Shown piece by piece: positions 19,699 to 31,149 of a stretch of 42,436 nt of DNA. The DNA is taken from positions 1 to 42,436 of the forward strand of contig JACRMT010000020.1 of assembly GCA_016214855.1 (NCBI GenBank). The letters are read 5' to 3'. The DNA comes from Nitrospirota bacterium (GTDB lineage: Bacteria; Nitrospirota; Thermodesulfovibrionia; Thermodesulfovibrionales; UBA6898). Numbering within the stretch: the first letter of the stretch is position 1; each line of letters starts with the position of its first letter. The notes beneath the pieces are model-generated. The model saw only the letters and a program-made list of their open reading frames with translations. It had not been told where the DNA came from and did not search any database. The translations under genes were made by a program, and so were the position numbers.

Positions 19699-20511
19699 AT
19701 GGTAAGTGGAGATAAGGAAGAGAAGATGCCTGAGAGGAGAAAATTCCTGTTTGACATGGTCAGGGGCCTTGGCGCTGCAACAGTTGGAGGGCTTGCATGG
19801 ACAGACATGCTTGACGGGAAAAAAACCTTTGCGACTATTCTGCGGCCTCCTGGCGCAGTGGTTGAGCAGGAGTTTCTTGCAAAATGCACGAAATGCGGCC
19901 TCTGCGTCGAAGCATGTCCGTACAAGGCGCTTCTGCTTGCGAAGCCGGGAGATGAACGGCCAGTCGGCACACCGTATTTTCAGATGCGTGAGAATCCCTG
20001 CAGAATGTGCAGGGACATTCCCTGTGCAGTGAGCTGCCCCACCGGCGCGCTTCTCCCTTCGCTGGTAAGCGACAGTGATGAGCAGGGGAAGTCACGTTTG
20101 GATGTCAACCTGACAAAGATCGGCCTTGCATTGATCGACAGGGAGACATGCATCGCTTACTGGGGAATCCAGTGCGATGCGTGTTATCGGGCATGCCCTT
20201 TGATTGATAAGGCGGTTACGGTTGAATACACGAAGAACGAACGGACAGGCAAGCATGCGATGCTTGCACCGGTTGTTCACAGCGACCACTGCACCGGATG
20301 CGGCATATGCGAACATGCCTGCGTTACGAAAAAGGCCTCGATCTTCGTGCTTCCAAGAGAGCTTGCCATGGGAGAGTCATCAGACCGGTACATACGGGGA
20401 TGGGACGATGCTGATGAGGAACGGATGCAAGGCCTTCCTGAGGAGACAACGACCAGGACACCGCGGTCAGAAAAGTCCCCGCTTGACTACCTGAACAAGG
20501 GAGACCTTTGA
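19699..20511 (+). CDS. napG: Periplasmic ferredoxin-type protein NapG
   Basis: NapG (270 residues) is an exported protein with four [4Fe-4S] clusters that passes electrons from NapH toward the nitrate reductase. A Tat-like ERRKFLF motif lies near the N-terminus. Cys clusters CTKCGLCVEACP, CRMCRDIPCAVSCP, CDACYRACP and CTGCGICEHAC are visible in order. ATG at 19699 is used here; ATG at 19726 (MPERRKFLF) would place the Tat motif right at the N-terminus and is a reasonable alternative. It lies between napA and napH, one base before napH. Confidence 0.93.
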   Translation: MVSGDKEEKMPERRKFLFDMVRGLGAATVGGLAWTDMLDGKKTFATILRPPGAVVEQEFLAKCTKCGLCVEACPYKALLLAKPGDERPVGTPYFQMRENPCRMCRDIPCAVSCPTGALLPSLVSDSDEQGKSRLDVNLTKIGLALIDRETCIAYWGIQCDACYRACPLIDKAVTVEYTKNERTGKHAMLAPVVHSDHCTGCGICEHACVTKKASIFVLPRELAMGESSDRYIRGWDDADEERMQGLPEETTTRTPRSEKSPLDYLNKGDL

Positions 20512-20512
20512 T

Positions 20513-21340
20513 ATGCCAATGTTCAGAGAATATAAGTTTATGGTACTGCGCAGGACCAGCCAGATTTCTATCATGCTCTTATTTGTGTCAGGTAACCTGC
20601 TCGGATGGCATGTCCTGAGAGGCAATCTCAGCACATCAAAGGTGCTGGATAGTGTACCGTTGACCGATCCCTTTACCCTTCTCCAGATATTTGCCGCAAA
20701 ACACCTTGTTTCAGGGCAGGCGCTTGCAGGTGCTCTGATCATTGTCCTTTTTTTCGGCCTGATCGCAGGCAGGTCCTTCTGCAGCTGGGTCTGTCCTCTC
20801 AACATGGTGACCGATCTTGCTAACTGGCTCAGAAAAAAGACCGGCCTTGATGCTTTGGGTAAAGGCCCTGTGATCAGCAGGAAGACGCGGTACTGGGTCA
20901 TTGGTACCAGTCTTGCTGTTTCCCTGGCAACAGGCGTTGCTGCCTTTGAGTGGATCAGTCCTATATCCATGCTGCATCGGGGCATTATTTTTGGCATGGG
21001 CATGGGATGGACCATGATACTTGCAGTTTTTTTATTCGACCTGTTTGTAAAAAGAGATGGCTTCTGCGGCCACCTCTGTCCTTTGGGCGGCTTTTACGCT
21101 CTCATCACACGGTTCAGCCTGGTCAGAGTCATGCACAGCAAAGAGAAATGTACACTCTGCATGAACTGTCTTGAGATCTGCCCTGAGCAGCAGGTTCTGC
21201 CCATGGTCGGAAAGGTCAGCAGCGCAGTGGCATCAGGAGAGTGTACGAACTGCGGCAGATGCGTAGAGGTATGCAATGAGAATGCCATGAAGTTCGGAAT
21301 CCGGTTTTCTCCGGAGAAAAACAAAACCAGTATTGCATGA
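20513..21340 (+). CDS. napH: Quinol dehydrogenase membrane component NapH
   Basis: NapH (275 residues) is a polytopic inner-membrane iron-sulfur protein that takes electrons from menaquinol. Four hydrophobic segments are visible, with the cytoplasmic CxxxCP motifs CSWVCP and CGHLCP. The C-terminus has two [4Fe-4S] motifs (CTLCMNCLEICP and CTNCGRCVEVC). With NapG it can replace the tetraheme NapC, which is absent here. Confidence 0.93.
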   Translation: MPMFREYKFMVLRRTSQISIMLLFVSGNLLGWHVLRGNLSTSKVLDSVPLTDPFTLLQIFAAKHLVSGQALAGALIIVLFFGLIAGRSFCSWVCPLNMVTDLANWLRKKTGLDALGKGPVISRKTRYWVIGTSLAVSLATGVAAFEWISPISMLHRGIIFGMGMGWTMILAVFLFDLFVKRDGFCGHLCPLGGFYALITRFSLVRVMHSKEKCTLCMNCLEICPEQQVLPMVGKVSSAVASGECTNCGRCVEVCNENAMKFGIRFSPEKNKTSIA

Positions 21341-21358
21341 TCATATAAGGAGGGTCCC

Positions 21359-21916
21359 ATGAAAGACATCTGCAGAAAAGGATTCATAGCAATGGGGATG
21401 GCCGTTATACTGTCTCTCGGAATCAGTCCGGCTGTTGCTGACGAGAAGAAGCATAAAGAAAAGAGCGAAGAGGAGCTTGGGATCAGGAAGGAGACACTCT
21501 ATGACGAAAGTAAGGTCATGCCTCAGCATGGCGAATACGGCAAGGCTGAGCCCGGCAAGAGCAAGAGGATAGAGCGGGCTTTTGAGAACAGTCCGCCGCT
21601 TATCCCCCATGACCTGACCGGTATGCTTCCGGTGGTAGAGACGAACAATGCATGCCTTAACTGTCATATGCCCGATGCTGCCCGGGCAATGAATGCCACG
21701 CCCCTGCCAAAGTCTCATTTTGTGGATATGGATACAGGCAAAGACCTGAAGGGCAGTCTGGATGGGAAACGGTACCCGTGCATGCAGTGCCATGTGCCTC
21801 AGGTGAAGATACCTGAGGCGATCAAGAACACCTTCAAGGCTGAGTTCAGAAGTAAAAAATCGAAGACCAGCTCGAATCTCCTTGACTCTCTGAACGAAGG
21901 GGTCAAGAGCGAATGA
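21359..21916 (+). CDS. napB: Diheme cytochrome c subunit NapB
   Basis: NapB (185 residues) is the periplasmic electron-transfer partner of NapA. A signal peptide ends near VADEKK. There are two heme sites, CLNCH and CMQCH, and family segments PPLIPHDLTGMLPV and MPDAARAMNATPLPKSHF. The C-terminal lysine- and serine-rich tail is longer than usual. A strong AAGGAGGG site precedes the ATG. Confidence 0.94.
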   Translation: MKDICRKGFIAMGMAVILSLGISPAVADEKKHKEKSEEELGIRKETLYDESKVMPQHGEYGKAEPGKSKRIERAFENSPPLIPHDLTGMLPVVETNNACLNCHMPDAARAMNATPLPKSHFVDMDTGKDLKGSLDGKRYPCMQCHVPQVKIPEAIKNTFKAEFRSKKSKTSSNLLDSLNEGVKSE

Positions 21917-22324: not shown

Positions 22325-23275
22325 ATGCTTGACGCATTTGCATCATATATTACATACAGTCTGTTCAATGTTTCTCAGGGCAGCAGGCTCGGTGATGCTC
22401 TTCATTTCTTTATATACGACACCATAAAGATATTCCTGCTGCTTTCGGTCATCATATTCGCTGTTTCTGTTATCAGGAGTTATTTCCCCCCTGAGCGGAC
22501 AAGGAAAATACTCTCACATAAAAAAGAATTTATCGGAAATATTCTTGCTGCGCTTCTTGGCATTGTTACTCCTTTCTGCTCCTGTTCAGCTGTTCCCCTG
22601 TTCATAGGTTTTATAGAGGCCGGTGTGCCTCTTGGCGTAACCTTCTCTTTTCTGATCTCCTCACCCATGGTAAATGAGGTGGCGGTTGTCCTCCTTTGGG
22701 GACTCTTCGGCTGGAAGATCGCTGCGATCTATCTGGGAACCGGGCTTCTGGTCGCCATAGTTGCGGGGTTGGCAATAGGGAAGCTGAAACTCGAAAAATG
22801 GGTGCAGGAATATGTCTACAAAATTCAGATCGGGCAGGGACAGGAAATTATTAAACAGGTCTTCAGAGACCGCCTGAAGTATGCGAAATGGAATACCGCA
22901 GATATCGTGAAAAAGGTCTGGCCTTATATTATTGTTGCCATCGGCATCGGCGGATTCATCCACGGGTATGTTCCCCAGGATTTTCTGGTGAAATACGCGG
23001 GACCGCAGAACCCATTTGCTGTGCCGATTGCTGTAGCGCTTGGAGTGCCGCTCTATTCCAATGCAGCAGGCGTAATCCCGATTGTCTACGCCCTTATGGA
23101 GAAGGGTCTAAGCACAGGGACAGTCCTGGCGTTTATGATGGCAGTGACAGCGCTCTCCCTTCCGGAGATGATCATCCTCAGAAAAGTATTAAAAGTCCCC
23201 CTGCTCGCAGTATTTGCAGGAATTATGACCATAACTATTACGGCTGTCGGCTATCTCTTTAACGCTATTTTATAG
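22325..23275 (+). CDS. ArsP/DUF318-family permease
   Basis: This 316-residue inner-membrane protein has eight or so hydrophobic segments. The motif TPFCSCSAVPLFIGF with three nearby Cys is the signature of the DUF318 (ArsP) permease family, which includes exporters of trivalent organoarsenicals. A second family block, YSNAAGVIPIVYALMEKG, lies near residue 240-260. It is the first gene after the promoter-operator and is followed by a thioredoxin-like gene, as often seen for this family. The exact substrate cannot be told from the sequence. Confidence 0.85.
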   Translation: MLDAFASYITYSLFNVSQGSRLGDALHFFIYDTIKIFLLLSVIIFAVSVIRSYFPPERTRKILSHKKEFIGNILAALLGIVTPFCSCSAVPLFIGFIEAGVPLGVTFSFLISSPMVNEVAVVLLWGLFGWKIAAIYLGTGLLVAIVAGLAIGKLKLEKWVQEYVYKIQIGQGQEIIKQVFRDRLKYAKWNTADIVKKVWPYIIVAIGIGGFIHGYVPQDFLVKYAGPQNPFAVPIAVALGVPLYSNAAGVIPIVYALMEKGLSTGTVLAFMMAVTALSLPEMIILRKVLKVPLLAVFAGIMTITITAVGYLFNAIL

Positions 23276-23280
23276 GAGGC

Positions 23281-23526
23281 ATGCATATGGAGATCAAGGT
23301 ATTAGGCCCGGGGTGTGCTAATTGCCATGCCATGGAAAGACTGGTTCAGGCCGCTGTCAGTGAACTCGGCATTATCGCCAATATCGAGAAGATTGCCGAT
23401 ATACAGGAGATCATGAAATATACGATGTCTACTCCCGGGCTCGTGGTGAACGGCAAGCTCAAACACTCCGGCAAACCCTTGCCCAGTCTTGAGAAGGTGA
23501 AAGAATTGCTAAAGGCTGAGGACTGA
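23281..23526 (+). CDS. Thioredoxin-family redox protein (redox-active disulfide protein type)
   Basis: This 81-residue small thioredoxin-like protein starts EIKVLGPGCANCHAMERLVQ, with the CxxC active site at the end of the first beta strand. It ends with the cis-Pro region TPGLVVNGKLKHSG. The family is frequently paired with DUF318 permeases in arsenic loci and probably reduces or transfers the thiol-bound substrate. ATG at 23281 or 23287 may start it. It is five bases after the permease stop. Confidence 0.85.
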   Translation: MHMEIKVLGPGCANCHAMERLVQAAVSELGIIANIEKIADIQEIMKYTMSTPGLVVNGKLKHSGKPLPSLEKVKELLKAED

Positions 23527-23530
23527 AAAT

Positions 23531-23908
23531 ATGCGGGACCTGCTTATTATATTTAAGGCTCTCTCCGACGAAACAAGACTCAGGATCATCAAGCTGCTTG
23601 AAAGGGGTGAACTCTGTGTCTGTGATATTGTCGCAGCGCTTGATATGGTTCAGCCGAAGGTATCGTTTCATCTTGCGGCACTGAAAGATGCCGGTTTTAT
23701 AAAGGACAGAAAACAGGGGCGGTGGACCCATTATAGTCTTGATGATTCGGATTTCTTCAAGAGATCCCTTCTTTTGTCTGTAATGGAAAGGACACCAGCG
23801 AAAGCAGTAGCTTTGGACCGGGAAAAGCTTGAGGATTTTCTGGAGGGCAAGCCGGCAAAAGGAGACGTTGTTCCCATGCAAAGCAAAAAAAGATGCTGCG
23901 GAGAATGA
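23531..23908 (+). CDS. arsR: ArsR/SmtB-family metalloregulator
   Basis: This 125-residue winged-helix repressor has the As(III)-sensing motif ELCVCDI (Cys29 and Cys31) in the DNA-recognition helix region, followed by [19 protein letters not shown], the helix-turn-helix. A CC pair near the C-terminus (residues 122-123) may add a third thiolate. As(III) binding would release it from the operator at 22281-22300. Its stop overlaps the start of the ACR3 gene. Confidence 0.92.
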
Positions 23909-24990
23909 TGATGGCCGAAATCGCAGACAAAAGGCTTTCTTTTCTCGACCGCTTTCTAACGCTTTGGATATTCGGCGCAATGGTCCTCGGTGTCGGCCTT
24001 GGATTTTTTATTCCGGGAACAGAGGGGTTCATCAACCTGTTTCAGGTCGGCACCACGAACATACCGATAGCCATCGGTCTTATCCTGATGATGTACCCTC
24101 CCTTGGCAAAAGTTAAATACGAGGAATTGGGGGAAGTATTCAGAAATAAGAAGATCCTCCTGCTTTCTCTCGCACAGAACTGGGTTATAGGTCCTGTTCT
24201 CATGTTCCTGTTAGCCATAGCCTTTCTTTCCGGATATCCGGAATATATGGTCGGCCTGATCATGATCGGTCTTGCCCGATGCATTGCCATGGTCATTGTA
24301 TGGAACGATCTTGCCTGCGGCGATACCGAGTACGCAGCAGGACTTGTCGCCTTTAACTCGATATTCCAGGTGCTCTTCTTCTCTGTCTATGCGTATGTTT
24401 TCATAACCGTCCTTCCTGCATGGTTCGGACTCAGGGGCGTTGTGGTCAATGTGACCATAGGCCAGATAGCTGAGAGCGTTTTCATCTATCTCGGCATACC
24501 GTTTCTGGCAGGCATGTTTACCCGCTTTGTCCTGCTTAAAGTAAAGAGCCGGGAATGGTATGCGAAGGTATTTATACCAAGAATAAGTCCGATCACACTC
24601 ATTTCGCTCCTCTTTACTATTGTGGTGATGTTCTCTCTCAAAGGCAATTACATCGTGAAGTTGCCGCTGGACGTCCTGCGGATTGCCGTGCCGCTGCTGA
24701 TCTATTTTGCAGTAATGTTTCTTGTCTCCTTCTATTTGGGAAAGAAGATAGGCGCTGATTATCCAAAGACAGCCACGCTTTCCTTTACGGCAGCAAGCAA
24801 TAATTTCGAACTTGCAATCGCGGTCGCTGTTGCGGTCTTCGGCATCAATTCAGGCGAAGCCTTTGCTGCAGTCATCGGCCCGCTCGTCGAAGTGCCGGTA
24901 TTGATTGGCCTCGTGAATGTGGCGCTTTATTTCCAGAAGAAGTATTTCAAACTTGAATACTGTCGGGTGAATAATGCTGATCTGTTGTGA
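23905..24990 (+). CDS. acr3: Arsenite efflux transporter ACR3
   Basis: This protein of about 361 residues is a 10-transmembrane arsenite exporter of the bile/arsenite/riboflavin transporter superfamily. It has [18 protein letters not shown], containing the Cys known to be essential in Acr3 proteins, and the family stretch [18 protein letters not shown]. Several ATG codons are clustered; 23905 overlaps the arsR stop as ATGA, and 23911 is also possible. Confidence 0.93.
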
Positions 24991-25022: not shown

Positions 25023-25262
25023 ATGACAAGGGATCTTATCTGTTACTGTTTTGCCTACTCTGAAGAAGACATTGTCAGGGATGTCAGGGAAAATAATGGC
25101 ATTTCCTCAATTCTGGAACGAATACGCAGTGAGAAAAAAAGGGGTGGGTGCAACTGCAAGACGAACCACCCTGAGGGCAGGTGATGTCTCGGCGATGTCC
25201 GCCGTGTTGCGGACGAGGCAAAGAAGCGGTTGATTAATGTTTCCGCGGAAGACAGGGGATGA
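25023..25262 (+). CDS. CopZ/BFD-like [2Fe-2S] protein, candidate selenoprotein (in-frame TGA)
   Basis: An 80-codon frame, 79 residues if TGA is read as Sec. Residues 1-53 match the BFD-like [2Fe-2S] half of CopZ proteins: LICYCFAYSEEDIVRDVREN, then a CNC pair and NHPEGR. The next codon is TGA at 25182-25184, followed by CLGDVRRVADEAKKRL. CopZ-type proteins normally read NP-x-GRCCLGDV here, so TGA replaces the first Cys of the conserved CC pair and family similarity continues past it. The final TGA overlaps the ATG of the CDF gene (25259). A hairpin follows the TGA at SECIS distance, and selA/selB lie about 2-6 kb downstream. If Sec is inserted it would be a cluster ligand or redox residue. 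The alternative is a Cys-to-stop mutation or sequence error. The N-terminal zinc domain of full CopZ is absent. The setting, between acr3 and a metal exporter, points to metal or metalloid handling. Confidence 0.78.
25185..25220 (+). promoter_or_regulatory. Candidate bacterial SECIS element
   Basis: Immediately after the in-frame TGA, a lower 6-bp helix (TGTCTC 25185-25190 with GAGGCA 25215-25220, one G-U pair) and an upper perfect 6-bp helix (GTCCGC 25197-25202 with GCGGAC 25209-25214) are separated by a six-base 5' bulge. The apical loop is CGTGTT, 18 bases after the TGA. Spacing and size suit SelB recognition. A competing 5-bp hairpin (25190-25204) exists, so folding should be computed. 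Confidence 0.6.
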
Positions 25263-26224
25263 GTTTAATCTTGCATGTTGTAATAGAGAAATCCAGATTA
25301 TTATCGAGTACCGGAATGGATAATAGTTCAATAAAACGCCTCGGCTGGAGCCTGGTCGTTACCCTGGTCATATTCGTCGCCGAGGTGATCGGCGGCGTAC
25401 TGAGCCGCAGTCTTGCTCTCCTGAGCGATGCCGGGCATGCGCTGACCGACGCCTTTGCGCTTGGCCTGAGCCTCATAGCCCTTCTGATCATGGAGCGGCC
25501 TTCCGACCACAAGGCAACCTATGGGTACCAGCGCATAGGCCTGCTCGCAGCCCTTATCAACGGCATCAGCCTTGTAGTTATAGCCCTGTTCATCTTTATG
25601 GAGGCGTATAAGCGCCTTCATGCTCCGCCCGAGATCAATTCATCGGTGATGCTTTTTATTGCGACAGCAGGGCTCTTTGGCAATTTGGTCATGGCATGGA
25701 TTTTAGGACACAAGCATCATGACCTGAATATGAAGAGTGCGTGGCTCCATGTGCTCGGCGATACCCTGGCTTCAGCAGGGGTTATCATAGCCGGGCTGAT
25801 CATTAAGTTTACCGGTTGGGTGCTTGCCGATACCATTGCGAGCGCCATTGTCGGATGCATGATCATCATCGGCGGGACCCGCGTCATAAAAGAAGCCCTC
25901 TGGATACTCCTGGACCTCAGTCCGATCGGCTTTCATGCAGAGGATTTTGCAAAGGTTATAGCAGAAATGCCGGGGGTGCGCAATGTACATGATCTGCATA
26001 TATGGTCCATTGGTCACGGCATACCTGCTTTTTCGGCACATGTTCAGGTTCATGACCAGAAGATAAGCGAAGCCGATGCCATTCGGAAGGAGATCGAGCA
26101 AAGGCTCGAACAGAGGGGAATAAAGCATGCCGTGATCCAGATGGAGTGCGAAGACTGCTGTAATAATGAGATCTACTGCCGCGTGAATGCAGAAAGCAGC
26201 CACCTTGGGCACCATCATCAATAA
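25259..26224 (+). CDS. Cation diffusion facilitator (CzcD/ZitB-like metal exporter)
   Basis: This 321-residue protein exports Zn(II), Cd(II) or similar ions from the cytoplasm. Six transmembrane segments are visible, with the metal site ALLSDAGHALTDAFALG in TM2 and the matching HVLGDTLASAGVI in TM5 (HxxxD). The cytoplasmic C-terminal domain has NVHDLHIWSIGHG. The tail is rich in Cys and His (ECEDCC, HLGHHHQ). ATG at 25259 overlaps the previous stop, but an ATG at 25316 (MDNSSIKRLGW) fits the usual family N-terminus and may be the true start. Confidence 0.92.
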   Translation: MSLILHVVIEKSRLLSSTGMDNSSIKRLGWSLVVTLVIFVAEVIGGVLSRSLALLSDAGHALTDAFALGLSLIALLIMERPSDHKATYGYQRIGLLAALINGISLVVIALFIFMEAYKRLHAPPEINSSVMLFIATAGLFGNLVMAWILGHKHHDLNMKSAWLHVLGDTLASAGVIIAGLIIKFTGWVLADTIASAIVGCMIIIGGTRVIKEALWILLDLSPIGFHAEDFAKVIAEMPGVRNVHDLHIWSIGHGIPAFSAHVQVHDQKISEADAIRKEIEQRLEQRGIKHAVIQMECEDCCNNEIYCRVNAESSHLGHHHQ

Positions 26225-26246: not shown

Positions 26247-26864
26247 ATGCTCAGCATGAATAACGAATATGAACACGAGTTTCAAAGAGTTTATGAACGC
26301 TTCCATGAAAAGATTCGACGCTATCTGGCCAGAATGGTCAACGAAACTGAAGCTGATGATCTATCCCAGGAGGTTTTCGTAAAGGTCAGCCGGGGGTTGA
26401 AGGATTTCAAACGAAGATCCAGCCTTTCAACATGGATCTACAAAATAGCAACCAACACGGCATTTGACAGGCTGCGTTCGCTCTCATTACAGAAAGAGAC
26501 TTCGGATATTCTGCACGGAAACGATGAAGGAGACGTTGAGGCTGCATATCTGGAGACGGAAGACCATAAACCTTCGCTTGAGGCATCTCTGATCAAAAAA
26601 GAAATGAATACCTGCATTCGTGGTATGGTGGATGGGCTGCAGGAAAAGTATCGGACTGTGCTGGTTCTGAGTGATTTTGAAGAACTGGCCAGTGATGAAA
26701 TTGCCCACATTCTCGGCATATCTTCGGATACGGTAAAGATCAGACTGCACCGGGCCAGAGCGCGGCTCAGGAAGGAACTGAAGGCAGGATGCAATCTCTA
26801 TCGTGATGAGCGCAATGAACTGGCCTGTGAAAGGACTTCCACTTCTCTTATGTTTCTCAAATAA
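26247..26864 (+). CDS. ECF-type RNA polymerase sigma factor
   Basis: This 205-residue protein has sigma region 2 (ADDLSQEVFVKVSRGLKDF and STWIYKIATNTAFDRLRS) and region 4 (YRTVLVLSDFEELASDEIAH followed by the HTH helix SSDTVKIRLHRARARLRKEL). The C-terminus CNLYRDERNELACER holds two Cys that could sense metal or redox state. No anti-sigma factor gene is next to it; the neighbour downstream is a CMD/AhpD-like protein. It may direct transcription of the metal-response genes here. Confidence 0.9.
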   Translation: MLSMNNEYEHEFQRVYERFHEKIRRYLARMVNETEADDLSQEVFVKVSRGLKDFKRRSSLSTWIYKIATNTAFDRLRSLSLQKETSDILHGNDEGDVEAAYLETEDHKPSLEASLIKKEMNTCIRGMVDGLQEKYRTVLVLSDFEELASDEIAHILGISSDTVKIRLHRARARLRKELKAGCNLYRDERNELACERTSTSLMFLK

Positions 26865-26922: not shown

Positions 26923-27180
26923 ATGAAGCTTGATAACCGGATTACAGAATTGATCGCGATAGGGGCATCGGTAACAGCAAACTGCCAGCCATGTCTGCAG
27001 TATCATGTTGATAAGGCGCTGGAAAGCGGGGCCAGTGACCCTGAAATTGCACAGGCAATTGAAGTTGCAAAAACAGTCAGAAAGGGCGCTGCAGGAAAGA
27101 TGGATCAGTTCGCTGCAACCATCAGTAAAACTGCACCGTCAAATGCAGGAGCATCGATGCAAGGATGCGGATGTAGCTAG
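26923..27180 (+). CDS. Carboxymuconolactone decarboxylase/AhpD-like protein
   Basis: This 85-residue protein has the CMD-domain core ELIAIGASVTANCQPCLQYH, with the CxxC plus His arrangement used by AhpD-type peroxidase partners, and SDPEIAQAIEVAKTVRKG. The C-terminus ends in a Cys-rich GCGCS. It probably acts as a thiol-disulfide enzyme. In some bacteria the equivalent CxxC is CxxU, but here both are Cys. AGGAGGTGAT precedes the ATG. It directly follows the sigma factor gene. Confidence 0.88.
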   Translation: MKLDNRITELIAIGASVTANCQPCLQYHVDKALESGASDPEIAQAIEVAKTVRKGAAGKMDQFAATISKTAPSNAGASMQGCGCS

Positions 27181-27415: not shown

Positions 27416-29299
27416 TCAGCTTTTGAGCAGCAATTTTCTCGCATCCCCCAGCCGGAGGGTTACTCTCGCTGCGTCGAGGTGTTCGAGAAAGGGAAGAGCG
27501 AATTTGCGGGATGTATTGAGAAGGTCTCGGAATTCTGCTACCGTGAGCTCCGGTTTCCTGGCGAAGAAGGTCTTCAAGGCTGTTATCATCTTGTCATATG
27601 CAGCGGCAGACAGGTAGATCGATTCGTTGACCCTTACCACAGCGCGCTCTTTTGCCAATATGTTGAGAATATCGGTTATCTGCTTCTGATCCATCTTCAG
27701 GGCCTCTGCCATCTCTGTCTTGGTGAGCGGCTGAAACTCTCCCTGTGCGAGAAGGTCGACGATCTTCGCCTTATGGGCTTCAGCAGCGCCGGATAGCGCT
27801 ACTCTGAACGTTTTCAGCCTGAGCAGGTCCTTATCAACGGTCACATCTTTGAGCGATGTCAGAAGATAATTAAAGAGCCTCGGATCGCTGTTCAGAAGAG
27901 TTCTTGCCTCTTCTTTTGGCATGCCCGGCTTGAGGGGATGCTCTTTATGGAATATTATGAGCAGGTTGCGCACCCTGCTGTTCAGGAGGTCAAAGGCATG
28001 TTTATGAATAAGCAACTCCTCGTGTTTTATGATCAGGCCAGACTGCACGAGGCCATTAATGGCATTTCGTATGGCCGTAAGGTCAGCACTGATCCAGCCA
28101 TGGAGCGCATGCGCTGAGATCCCAGCGGGCCCTGCTTTTTCGATCTTCAGTGCAAGCTTCTGATCGAGCTTGCCTGTATGCAATATTGATAGATCCTGAA
28201 TGCCATCCTTTCTTTTTCTTCTGACCGGTGAAGGATCAAGCACTTCTCCGCCGCCGAGCGTTTCAAGAGGCGAGAATCTTCTGATGATATACCGGTCTCC
28301 TGACATGGCAATAACAGGAGTCTGAATCCTGAACTGGCAGAAACAGCTTTCGCCTGCCTTGAGCTCTTCTTTTTCGTAGAGGATGACGCGGGCGACCGTC
28401 TCGGCGGTACCAGCATAGAAATGCACAAGGCTCCTGTTTTTCAGTACAGGAACATTTGTCAGCAGTTCAAGAAAAAGATCCAGGGTTCTCGTCGGAACAA
28501 AACTTGAAGGAGCAACGGCAACGTCTCCCCGCTGAAGGTCATCCTTTTCGACGCCCTGGAGATTTATCGCGATCCTCTGGCCGGCATATGCCTTTTGGAT
28601 GGCCTTGCCGTGGCTGTGGAGACCTCTTACTTTGGTTGTTATCCCCGCCGGAAGGATCTCGACCGGCGTATCAACCGCTATCATGCCGGATACCGCTGTG
28701 CCTGTGATAACAGTGCCGAATCCCTTCAGGGTAAAGACCCTGTCTATCGGCAGCCTGAATATCCCCTCTGCTGTCTTGGGGCGGATGGTGAGGGCAAGGT
28801 CCTTTATCGATTTTTTGAGAGAATCAAGATTTTCGCCGGTTTTGGAAGAAACAGGAATGACGGCAGCCTGTTCCAGAAAGGTTCCTTTAACAAAACCTTT
28901 GATTTCGTCTGCAACGAGACCAAGCCATTCTTTTTCGACAAGATCTGCCTTGGTTATCACGATCAGACCTGCCTTGATCTTCAGAAGATCGCATATGGCA
29001 AGGTGTTCGCGGCTCTGGGGCATGATGCCTTCGTCAGCAGCAATGACCATGAGCACAATATCTATGCCGCCTGCTCCGGCAAGCATGTTGCTTATCAGTT
29101 TCTCGTGACCGGGCACGTCCACGATTCCGACCGTGAGGCCGTCCTCAGGATAGGCGAGGTCGGCGAACCCGATATCAATGGTGATGCCCCGGTCTTTTTC
29201 CTCTTTCAGCCTGTCAGGGTCAATGCCCGTGAGGGCCTTTACGAGCGAACTTTTCCCATGGTCTATATGTCCGGCAGTGCCGAGGATGATATGTCGCAT
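27416..29299 (-). CDS. selB: Selenocysteine-specific elongation factor SelB
   Basis: SelB (627 residues) delivers Sec-tRNA to UGA codons marked by a SECIS hairpin. The GTPase domain has GHIDHGKS (residues 10-17), [16 protein letters not shown] (61-66) and TKAD (116-119). The domain then continues into EF-Tu-like beta barrels, and the C-terminal half contains the winged-helix repeats that bind SECIS RNA (for example [21 protein letters not shown] [13 protein letters not shown]). Length is normal. No selC was found next to it. AT-rich DNA upstream probably holds its promoter. Confidence 0.96.
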
Positions 29300-29730: not shown

Positions 29731-31149
29731 TTACGGCCTTAGTGCAGAAGAAACCATCTTGACGAGTTCTTTGATATCCTGATCCTGTATCGTTCTGGCG
29801 TCAAGCAGAATGGCATTGTCTCTTATCCGGGCTATGACCGGCGTTGAGCCTGTTCTCAGCCGCGTTTCCAATACATTTGCAGCGATATTTATTGGGTTTA
29901 TTGAAACAGCAAAGGTCTCAAATTCGGCCTCAGGCAAAGAGCCGCCGCCGGCCTTTGAGGAGTCTCTTTCCACGGTCATTGTCAGGGCTATACCCGCTCC
30001 TTTCAGCTGTCTGCGGAGTTGTGCAGCGATCTTTTTTGCCCGCGACCTGATCGTTTCCGGCGACTGGAAGAGCATCCGGAGCACGGGTATGCTTTGCAAT
30101 GCTTTCTCAGGATCAAGATAGTCCATGAGCGTTGCCTCAAAGGCTGCGATGGTCATCTTGTCGACCCTGACTGCGCGTGCAAGAGGATTTTTTCGGATCT
30201 TCTCAAGAAGATCCTGCCTGCCGACAATGATGCCGCCCTGCGGTCCCCCAAGAAGCTTGTCGCCGCTGAAGGTCACAAGATCTACACCGGATCTTACTAT
30301 CTCCTGCACAGAAGGCTCTCCATGGATGCCGTGTGGTTTCAGGTCGATCAGGCAGCCGCTGCCGAGATCATACATGACAGGGATGCCGTGCTCTTTGCCC
30401 AATAGTGCAAGCTGTTCTATGGACACCTCTTCCGTGAAGCCGGTGATCTTATAATTTGACTGATGGACCTTGAGAATAAGACCTGTTTTCTCATTGACTG
30501 CCTTGCGGTAATCATGGAGGTGAGTCTTATTCGTTGTTCCGATCTCGCGAAGTGTTGCACCGCTTGCAGCCATCACATCAGGCACCCTGAAAGAGCCGCC
30601 GATTTCGACAAGTTCGCCTCTCGACACGATAGCTTCCCTGTCCTTCGCAAGAACGGCAAGAGAGAGAAATACCGCTGCAGCATTATTGTTCACGATCAGG
30701 GCATCCTCAGCCCCGGTTAGCTGACAGAGGATCCTCGTTGTATGGGAATGGCGCTTACCTCTCTTCCCTGCATTGAGGTCATATTCGAGATTAGAATATC
30801 CCCTGCTTGCGACAATCACATTGTGCACCGCTTTTTCGGAAAGCACTGCCCTCCCCAGATTCGTATGCAGCACGATGCCGGTCGCATTTATCACGGGAAC
30901 CAGGCTGAAAGAGGAGAGCTGCTGAATTCTTGCGCTGATGCAGGATGAGAGGGCAGATGAGGCGATGTCCGGCTGTCCTCCTTCGAGTATCTTTTTTCTT
31001 TCCCCGGCTATGATATCCCTGATCGCCTGCACGACAATGGTTCTTGGGAACGAGGAAAGCCACTGGCCGCTGTCAGCGCCTTTCAGAAGTTCGTCGACAG
31101 ACGGAAGCGCTGAAAGGACTGCGGCCTTTTCACTTTTGTCTTCTTTCAC
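29731..31149 (-). CDS. selA: L-seryl-tRNA(Sec) selenium transferase SelA
   Basis: SelA (472 residues) converts Ser-tRNA(Sec) to Sec-tRNA(Sec) with selenophosphate. It is a PLP enzyme. The PLP-binding lysine is in TFSGDKLLGGPQGG near residue 295, and VINATGIVLHTNLGRAVLSE is the family N-terminal signature. It ends with RLRTGSTPVIARIRDNAILL. SelD and selC were not seen in this window. Confidence 0.96.
   Translation of the reverse strand: MKEDKSEKAAVLSALPSVDELLKGADSGQWLSSFPRTIVVQAIRDIIAGERKKILEGGQPDIASSALSSCISARIQQLSSFSLVPVINATGIVLHTNLGRAVLSEKAVHNVIVASRGYSNLEYDLNAGKRGKRHSHTTRILCQLTGAEDALIVNNNAAAVFLSLAVLAKDREAIVSRGELVEIGGSFRVPDVMAASGATLREIGTTNKTHLHDYRKAVNEKTGLILKVHQSNYKITGFTEEVSIEQLALLGKEHGIPVMYDLGSGCLIDLKPHGIHGEPSVQEIVRSGVDLVTFSGDKLLGGPQGGIIVGRQDLLEKIRKNPLARAVRVDKMTIAAFEATLMDYLDPEKALQSIPVLRMLFQSPETIRSRAKKIAAQLRRQLKGAGIALTMTVERDSSKAGGGSLPEAEFETFAVSINPINIAANVLETRLRTGSTPVIARIRDNAILLDARTIQDQDIKELVKMVSSALRP

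Follow-up and report, generated by a model that had tools for sequence, protein, structure and literature searches.

A short CopZ-like protein of Nitrospirota as a predicted GxUC selenoprotein encoded beside arsenic efflux genes

Iron-sulfur proteins of the CopZ type have entered the catalogues of bacterial selenoproteins. One entry, the ‘(2Fe-2S)-binding protein (copper chaperone CopZ family) form 1’, is assigned to cd10141, has the motif GxUC and is represented by WP_245779778.1 (PMC13188914, Table 1, 2026); an identical form 1 entry appears in a 2022 review (PMC9312934). The reviews credit this form to a 2008 GOS paper (PMC2398784), in the main text of which neither ‘CopZ’ nor ‘2Fe-2S’ appears. 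The protein described here shares with form 1 a CopZ-like BFD domain, a single selenocysteine (Sec) and the motif G-x-U-C, here GRUC, although the catalogue entry comes without gene context, size or function, and the likeness is one of listed description rather than of sequence. As the motif is identical, the protein is regarded as a new member of this catalogued selenoprotein type. The suspicion voiced in a preliminary description of the locus, that a Sec-containing CopZ-like domain would be new, is thus not borne out, a GxUC selenoprotein of the CopZ family having been catalogued already (PMC13188914, PMC9312934).

Further relatives are found among protein families and solved structures. The Csac_0668 family (NF045877, ‘form 2’) has the same kind of domain and also carries Sec within a cysteine pair, but in the order CU, whereas the order here is UC. 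The putative iron-sulfur metallochaperone CopZ_Nterm_CC (NF047645) has the cysteines in common but reads CC where UC is found here; proteins of this kind are all-Cys and longer (open frames of about 150-320 aa), with an extra N-terminal cysteine-rich domain that is absent from the protein under study. PDB 2hu9, whose chain is labelled as a mercuric transport protein component, is the N-terminal domain of Archaeoglobus fulgidus CopZ. Its VCYC...C...NPSGRCC aligns, weakly (E 0.37), with ICYC...C...HPEGRUC of the protein under study; the solved chain lacks Sec and carries another domain ahead of the match.

The gene lies on the forward strand at 25023-25262 of the window, the whole stretch of 42,436 nt of Nitrospirota DNA that was analysed. 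Its frame opens with the ATG at 25023, is interrupted in frame by the TGA at 25182-25184 and closes with a terminal TGA at 25260-25262. With the first TGA read as Sec, translation yields the 79 residues MTRDLICYCFAYSEEDIVRDVRENNGISSILERIRSEKKRGGCNCKTNHPEGRUCLGDVRRVADEAKKRLINVSAEDRG, in which Sec is residue 54 and the GRUC motif occupies residues 52-55. The best profile match is to CopZ_Nterm_CC (51.5 bits, residues 3-59), covering only model positions 85-137 of 138 and falling below the cut-off of 100 set for the whole model. The Csac_0668 family profile (CopZ_Nterm_CU) gives 27.3 bits against a cut-off of 190, with the UC order setting the protein outside that family. Fer2_BFD (PF04324) matches residues 5-47 at 18 bits (E 0.0037), beneath its gathering threshold of 26, and on sequence grounds a likeness to this domain, though not formal membership, is plausible. 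Since the matches are partial and fall on the C-terminal part of the CopZ_Nterm_CC model, the protein is viewed as a stand-alone domain. It is very probably a single BFD-like [2Fe-2S] domain, akin to the N-terminal portion found in CopZ-type metallochaperones but shorter, and a genuine selenoprotein.

In an alignment of the protein with seven close relatives, Cys7, Cys9, Cys43, Cys45, Cys55 and the Sec column are invariant. By homology, a [2Fe-2S] cluster would be held by Cys7, Cys9, Cys45 and either Sec54 or Cys55, the remaining one of the last two standing as a free selenol or thiol beside the cluster. An AlphaFold model of the 79-residue protein is predicted with a mean pLDDT of 88.8; Foldseek returned no matches to it, and VIA-align aligned only three chains, with one unrelated row and no relevant match.

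The seven close relatives were found by scanning the contigs of genomes, and come from metagenome-assembled genomes with Nitrospirae, Nitrospiraceae or Deltaproteobacteria in their titles; each of them has TGA at the matching place. A profile built from the eight sequences was run over 396 Nitrospirota genomes and over a second set of 395 genomes, from the phylum of one Deltaproteobacteria MAG. This profile scores Sec as Cys, and is therefore not biased against short Cys forms. In Nitrospirota the best 28 matches are short forms, all with TGA; within the matched region, one of them has an additional TGA and one has a TAG. Two broken copies come next in the ranking, followed by long Cys proteins. 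The best 56 matches in the Deltaproteobacteria phylum all have TGA. When intact loci were aligned by codon, TGA occupied the column in 71 of 71 (31/31 in the Nitrospirota set, 40/40 in the Deltaproteobacteria-phylum set). No short Cys form was found by the profile search in the 396 and 395 genomes, and in the genomes sampled the short form looks to be Sec-only.

The residues beyond the TGA are also kept, Cys and Asp each being present in 31 of 31 loci of the Nitrospirota set. Longer Cys relatives, which have a cysteine-rich N-terminal domain ahead of the matching part, read GRCC, GSCC, GGCC, GACC or GTCC at the GxUC site. Because these relatives have CC where the short form has UC, Sec is taken to replace the first Cys of the pair. 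The earlier reading of the locus as a frame of one family on both sides of the TGA, with the TGA in place of the first Cys, is therefore upheld: flanks are conserved in the 71 intact loci from two phyla, the long homologues have Cys at position 54, and UGA recurs at this column in every intact short locus. Of the outcomes that would have spoken against it, namely homologues truncated at this point, TGT or TGC at the site, or a genome lacking tRNA-Sec, none was seen. The two broken Nitrospirota copies (L080, L081) have an apparent frameshift before the TGA, attributable to assembly error or to decay; genome G384 contains one of the pair together with an intact TGA copy (L073). A further homologue with TGA in the same column is found at L174:3001-3210, on an IMG/VR contig classed as viral, which may be host DNA that was misclassified or mixed.

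Downstream of the TGA lies a candidate apical stem-loop of a bacterial SECIS element, GUCCGC-CGUGUU-GCGGAC, at 25197-25214 on the forward strand. The stem begins 12 nt and the loop 18 nt from the UGA, the loop has 6 nt with G as its second, and the stem alone has a folding energy of -10.6 kcal/mol. The bSECIS model has a loop of 3-9 nt, a G in loop positions 1-2, a distance of 16-37 nt from the UGA and an energy of -7.5 kcal/mol or lower (PMC13188914), and the hairpin agrees with it in every respect. As the single-sequence fold is unexceptional against shuffles (z -0.42), the case for a SECIS element relies on comparative evidence. In the 31-locus set there is no synonymous variation at Val+5 (GTC in 30/30), Arg+6 (CGC in 25/25) or Ala+9 (GCG in 17/17), whereas the conserved Gly-13 and Pro-4 are spread about evenly over four codons. 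Stem pairs are formed in 98.6% of cells of the first, Nitrospirota, set and in 95.6% of the second. Two-sided changes number 9 cells in the first set, against 3.6 in shuffles (0/500 reach 9), and 7 in the second, against 1.0 (0/500 reach 7); the counts are inflated by kinship among the sequences, with both phyla concordant. Controls with slid stems have far fewer two-sided changes. Among the Deltaproteobacteria-phylum loci, U-A replaces C18-G31, in some cases with Asp giving way to Asn, and G-C replaces C21-G28, so that some compensatory swaps alter amino acids. An Rfam scan of the window gave no match, a weak test since bacterial SECIS hairpins are highly diverse.

The machinery for inserting Sec is present in the genome. 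A tRNA-Sec scores 70.9 bits, above the cut-off, on contig 12, and the window itself encodes SelB, the Sec-specific elongation factor (27416-29299, reverse strand; TIGR00475, 375 bits over 27431-29290), and SelA, the selenocysteine synthase (29731-31149, reverse strand; TIGR00474, 616 bits over 29749-31113), both scores being above cut-off. These two genes are on the strand opposite to the selenoprotein gene, 2-6 kb downstream of it. A SelD homologue (L020, G000:C2:175951-176877) has one in-frame TGA, and the SelD of this genome is probably itself a selenoprotein, as judged from its sequence. With tRNA-Sec, SelA, SelB and SelD all accounted for, SelB and tRNA-Sec would decode the UGA at 25182-25184 under the direction of the hairpin 12 nt downstream.

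UGA is a normal terminator of other genes in the window, acr3 among them. Genome-wide recoding of UGA was set aside for this reason, and the same fact lends some plausibility to a real stop here, which would leave a 53-residue CYC...GR peptide, with the CLGDV part as a conserved RNA or the tail of an old pseudogene. This account is very improbable, given that the residues after the TGA are conserved and can be aligned on to the long Cys CopZ forms, and that a covarying hairpin and a full set of Sec machinery accompany them. An error of sequencing or assembly turning TGC or TGT into TGA, or a decaying pseudogene, might be thought of in view of the two apparently frameshifted relatives, but is more improbable still: the homologues refute it, and with TGA in all 71 intact loci of two phyla, frame error, pseudogene and chance are ruled out as explanations. 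The gene at 25023-25262 almost certainly encodes a true selenoprotein, as far as comparison of sequences can establish this.

The gene is placed in a run of genes on the forward strand, in the order ArsP, ArsE-type thioredoxin, ArsR, Acr3, selenoprotein, CDF, ECF sigma factor and AhpD-like protein. The ArsP_1 permease (22325-23275; PF03773, 279.8 bits) is the only copy found in the 3.3-Mb genome. It is followed by a thioredoxin-like protein of the MTH895/ArsE family, a Cys form with a CANC motif (23281-23526; TIGR00412, 85.5 bits, above cut-off), an ArsR/SmtB-family metalloregulator (23531-23908; NF033788, 98.3 bits, above cut-off) and an Acr3 arsenite efflux transporter (23893-24990; TIGR00832, 459 bits, above cut-off). 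Beyond the selenoprotein gene lie a CDF-family cation efflux transporter (25259-26224; TIGR01297, 268 bits), an ECF-type sigma factor (26247-26864; Sigma70_r2 and r4_2) and an AhpD/CMD-like protein, again a Cys form (26923-27180; PF02627). The next gene had been said to start exactly where the selenoprotein frame ends; the stop does overlap an ATG at 25259, but the true start of the CDF gene is probably 25316, since the alignment with CDF homologues sets in only near residue 20. Genes for NapG, NapH and NapB-like proteins of the periplasmic nitrate reductase occur at 19699-21916, just upstream of the arsenic cluster. The Tso three-selenoprotein operon was considered for its ArsR-type regulator and rejected, as its motifs LULAxC, UxxxxU and GxxU differ from GxUC.

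The arsenic setting recurs. Neighbours were counted around 73 loci, 31 in one set and 42 in the other, with the locus in the window included. Within 5 kb the leading four families are ArsR (28 loci), ArsE-type thioredoxin (25), ArsP (24) and Acr3 (20); they are the top four in both phyla and lie mostly on the same strand. In 30 of the 73 loci (15/31 and 15/42) a same-strand ArsP or Acr3 lies no more than 5 kb away, and the placement in an arsenic cluster proposed in the preliminary description is thus a real feature shared by two phyla. With one ArsP_1 in 3.3 Mb, chance nearness of ArsP would be about 0.3% per locus, a figure to be read with the loci of related genomes not being independent. 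Several Deltaproteobacteria-phylum loci have the order ArsR, ArsP, selenoprotein gene, thioredoxin, and other loci have no arsenic genes. The remaining 43 of the 73 loci, some of them on short contigs, have no same-strand ArsP or Acr3 within 5 kb, so arsenic is not the whole story. The ECF sigma factor and the AhpD-like protein lie within 5 kb in 6/73 and 5/73 loci, respectively, the locus in the window counted, and several related genomes (e.g. L057, L058, L060) have the pair close to the selenoprotein gene.

From the gene neighbourhood, it is tentatively proposed that the selenoprotein is a small redox or metalloid-binding partner of arsenical efflux. It would act with ArsP or Acr3 and the ArsE-type thioredoxin in the detoxification of arsenicals or metalloids in this lineage, as a small protein that transfers electrons or binds soft metals or metalloids, so that either the arsenical or a partner thiol protein stays in the reduced state needed for export. 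Tight binding of As(III) by the selenol is conceivable, as is a supply of electrons from the adjacent cluster. A narrower version, in which the short form is a Sec-only subfamily dedicated to arsenical efflux and uses a [2Fe-2S]-linked selenol to reduce trivalent arsenicals or carry them to ArsP or Acr3, is rather unlikely; no description of such reduction or carriage by a BFD or CopZ protein was found in the literature. Since over half of the loci are without same-strand arsenic exporters, it is about as likely as the efflux role that this is a Sec-containing [2Fe-2S] protein of general use, in redox chemistry or in the trafficking of copper, mercury, iron or selenium, for which the arsenic genes are one neighbourhood among several. 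That general role, which comes close to an even chance, is favoured also by plasmid-borne long Cys relatives annotated as CopZ-family copper chaperones, one of them under a mercuric reductase feature, and by the closeness of SelA and SelB in the window. Against it, the arsenic families head the neighbours in both phyla, and ArsP is single-copy here.

The comparison seems to add two things to the catalogued type: the short form looks Sec-only, and arsenic genes recur in its neighbourhood. Neither was found described, and an earlier account is possible in Haft and Tolstoy 2025, on selenoprotein neighbourhoods. Ordinary gene calling would cut such a gene at residue 53 or overlook it. As far as sequence can settle the matter, a small gene widespread in Nitrospirota and Deltaproteobacteria now stands as that of a selenoprotein, and a catalogued, uncharacterised selenoprotein type is tied to arsenic operons. 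Why selenium should stand beside an iron-sulfur cluster thereby becomes a question open to ordinary experiments, and a family seemingly without Cys versions offers a useful case of what Sec does that Cys cannot. The names ArsC-like and CcdA-like, where used for neighbours, are our own assumption, given by eye from sequence. In the Nitrospirota loci L055 and L070, a thioredoxin-like gene lies directly upstream of the selenoprotein gene and a CcdA-like membrane protein is encoded downstream, a flanking pair that suggests a redox relay.
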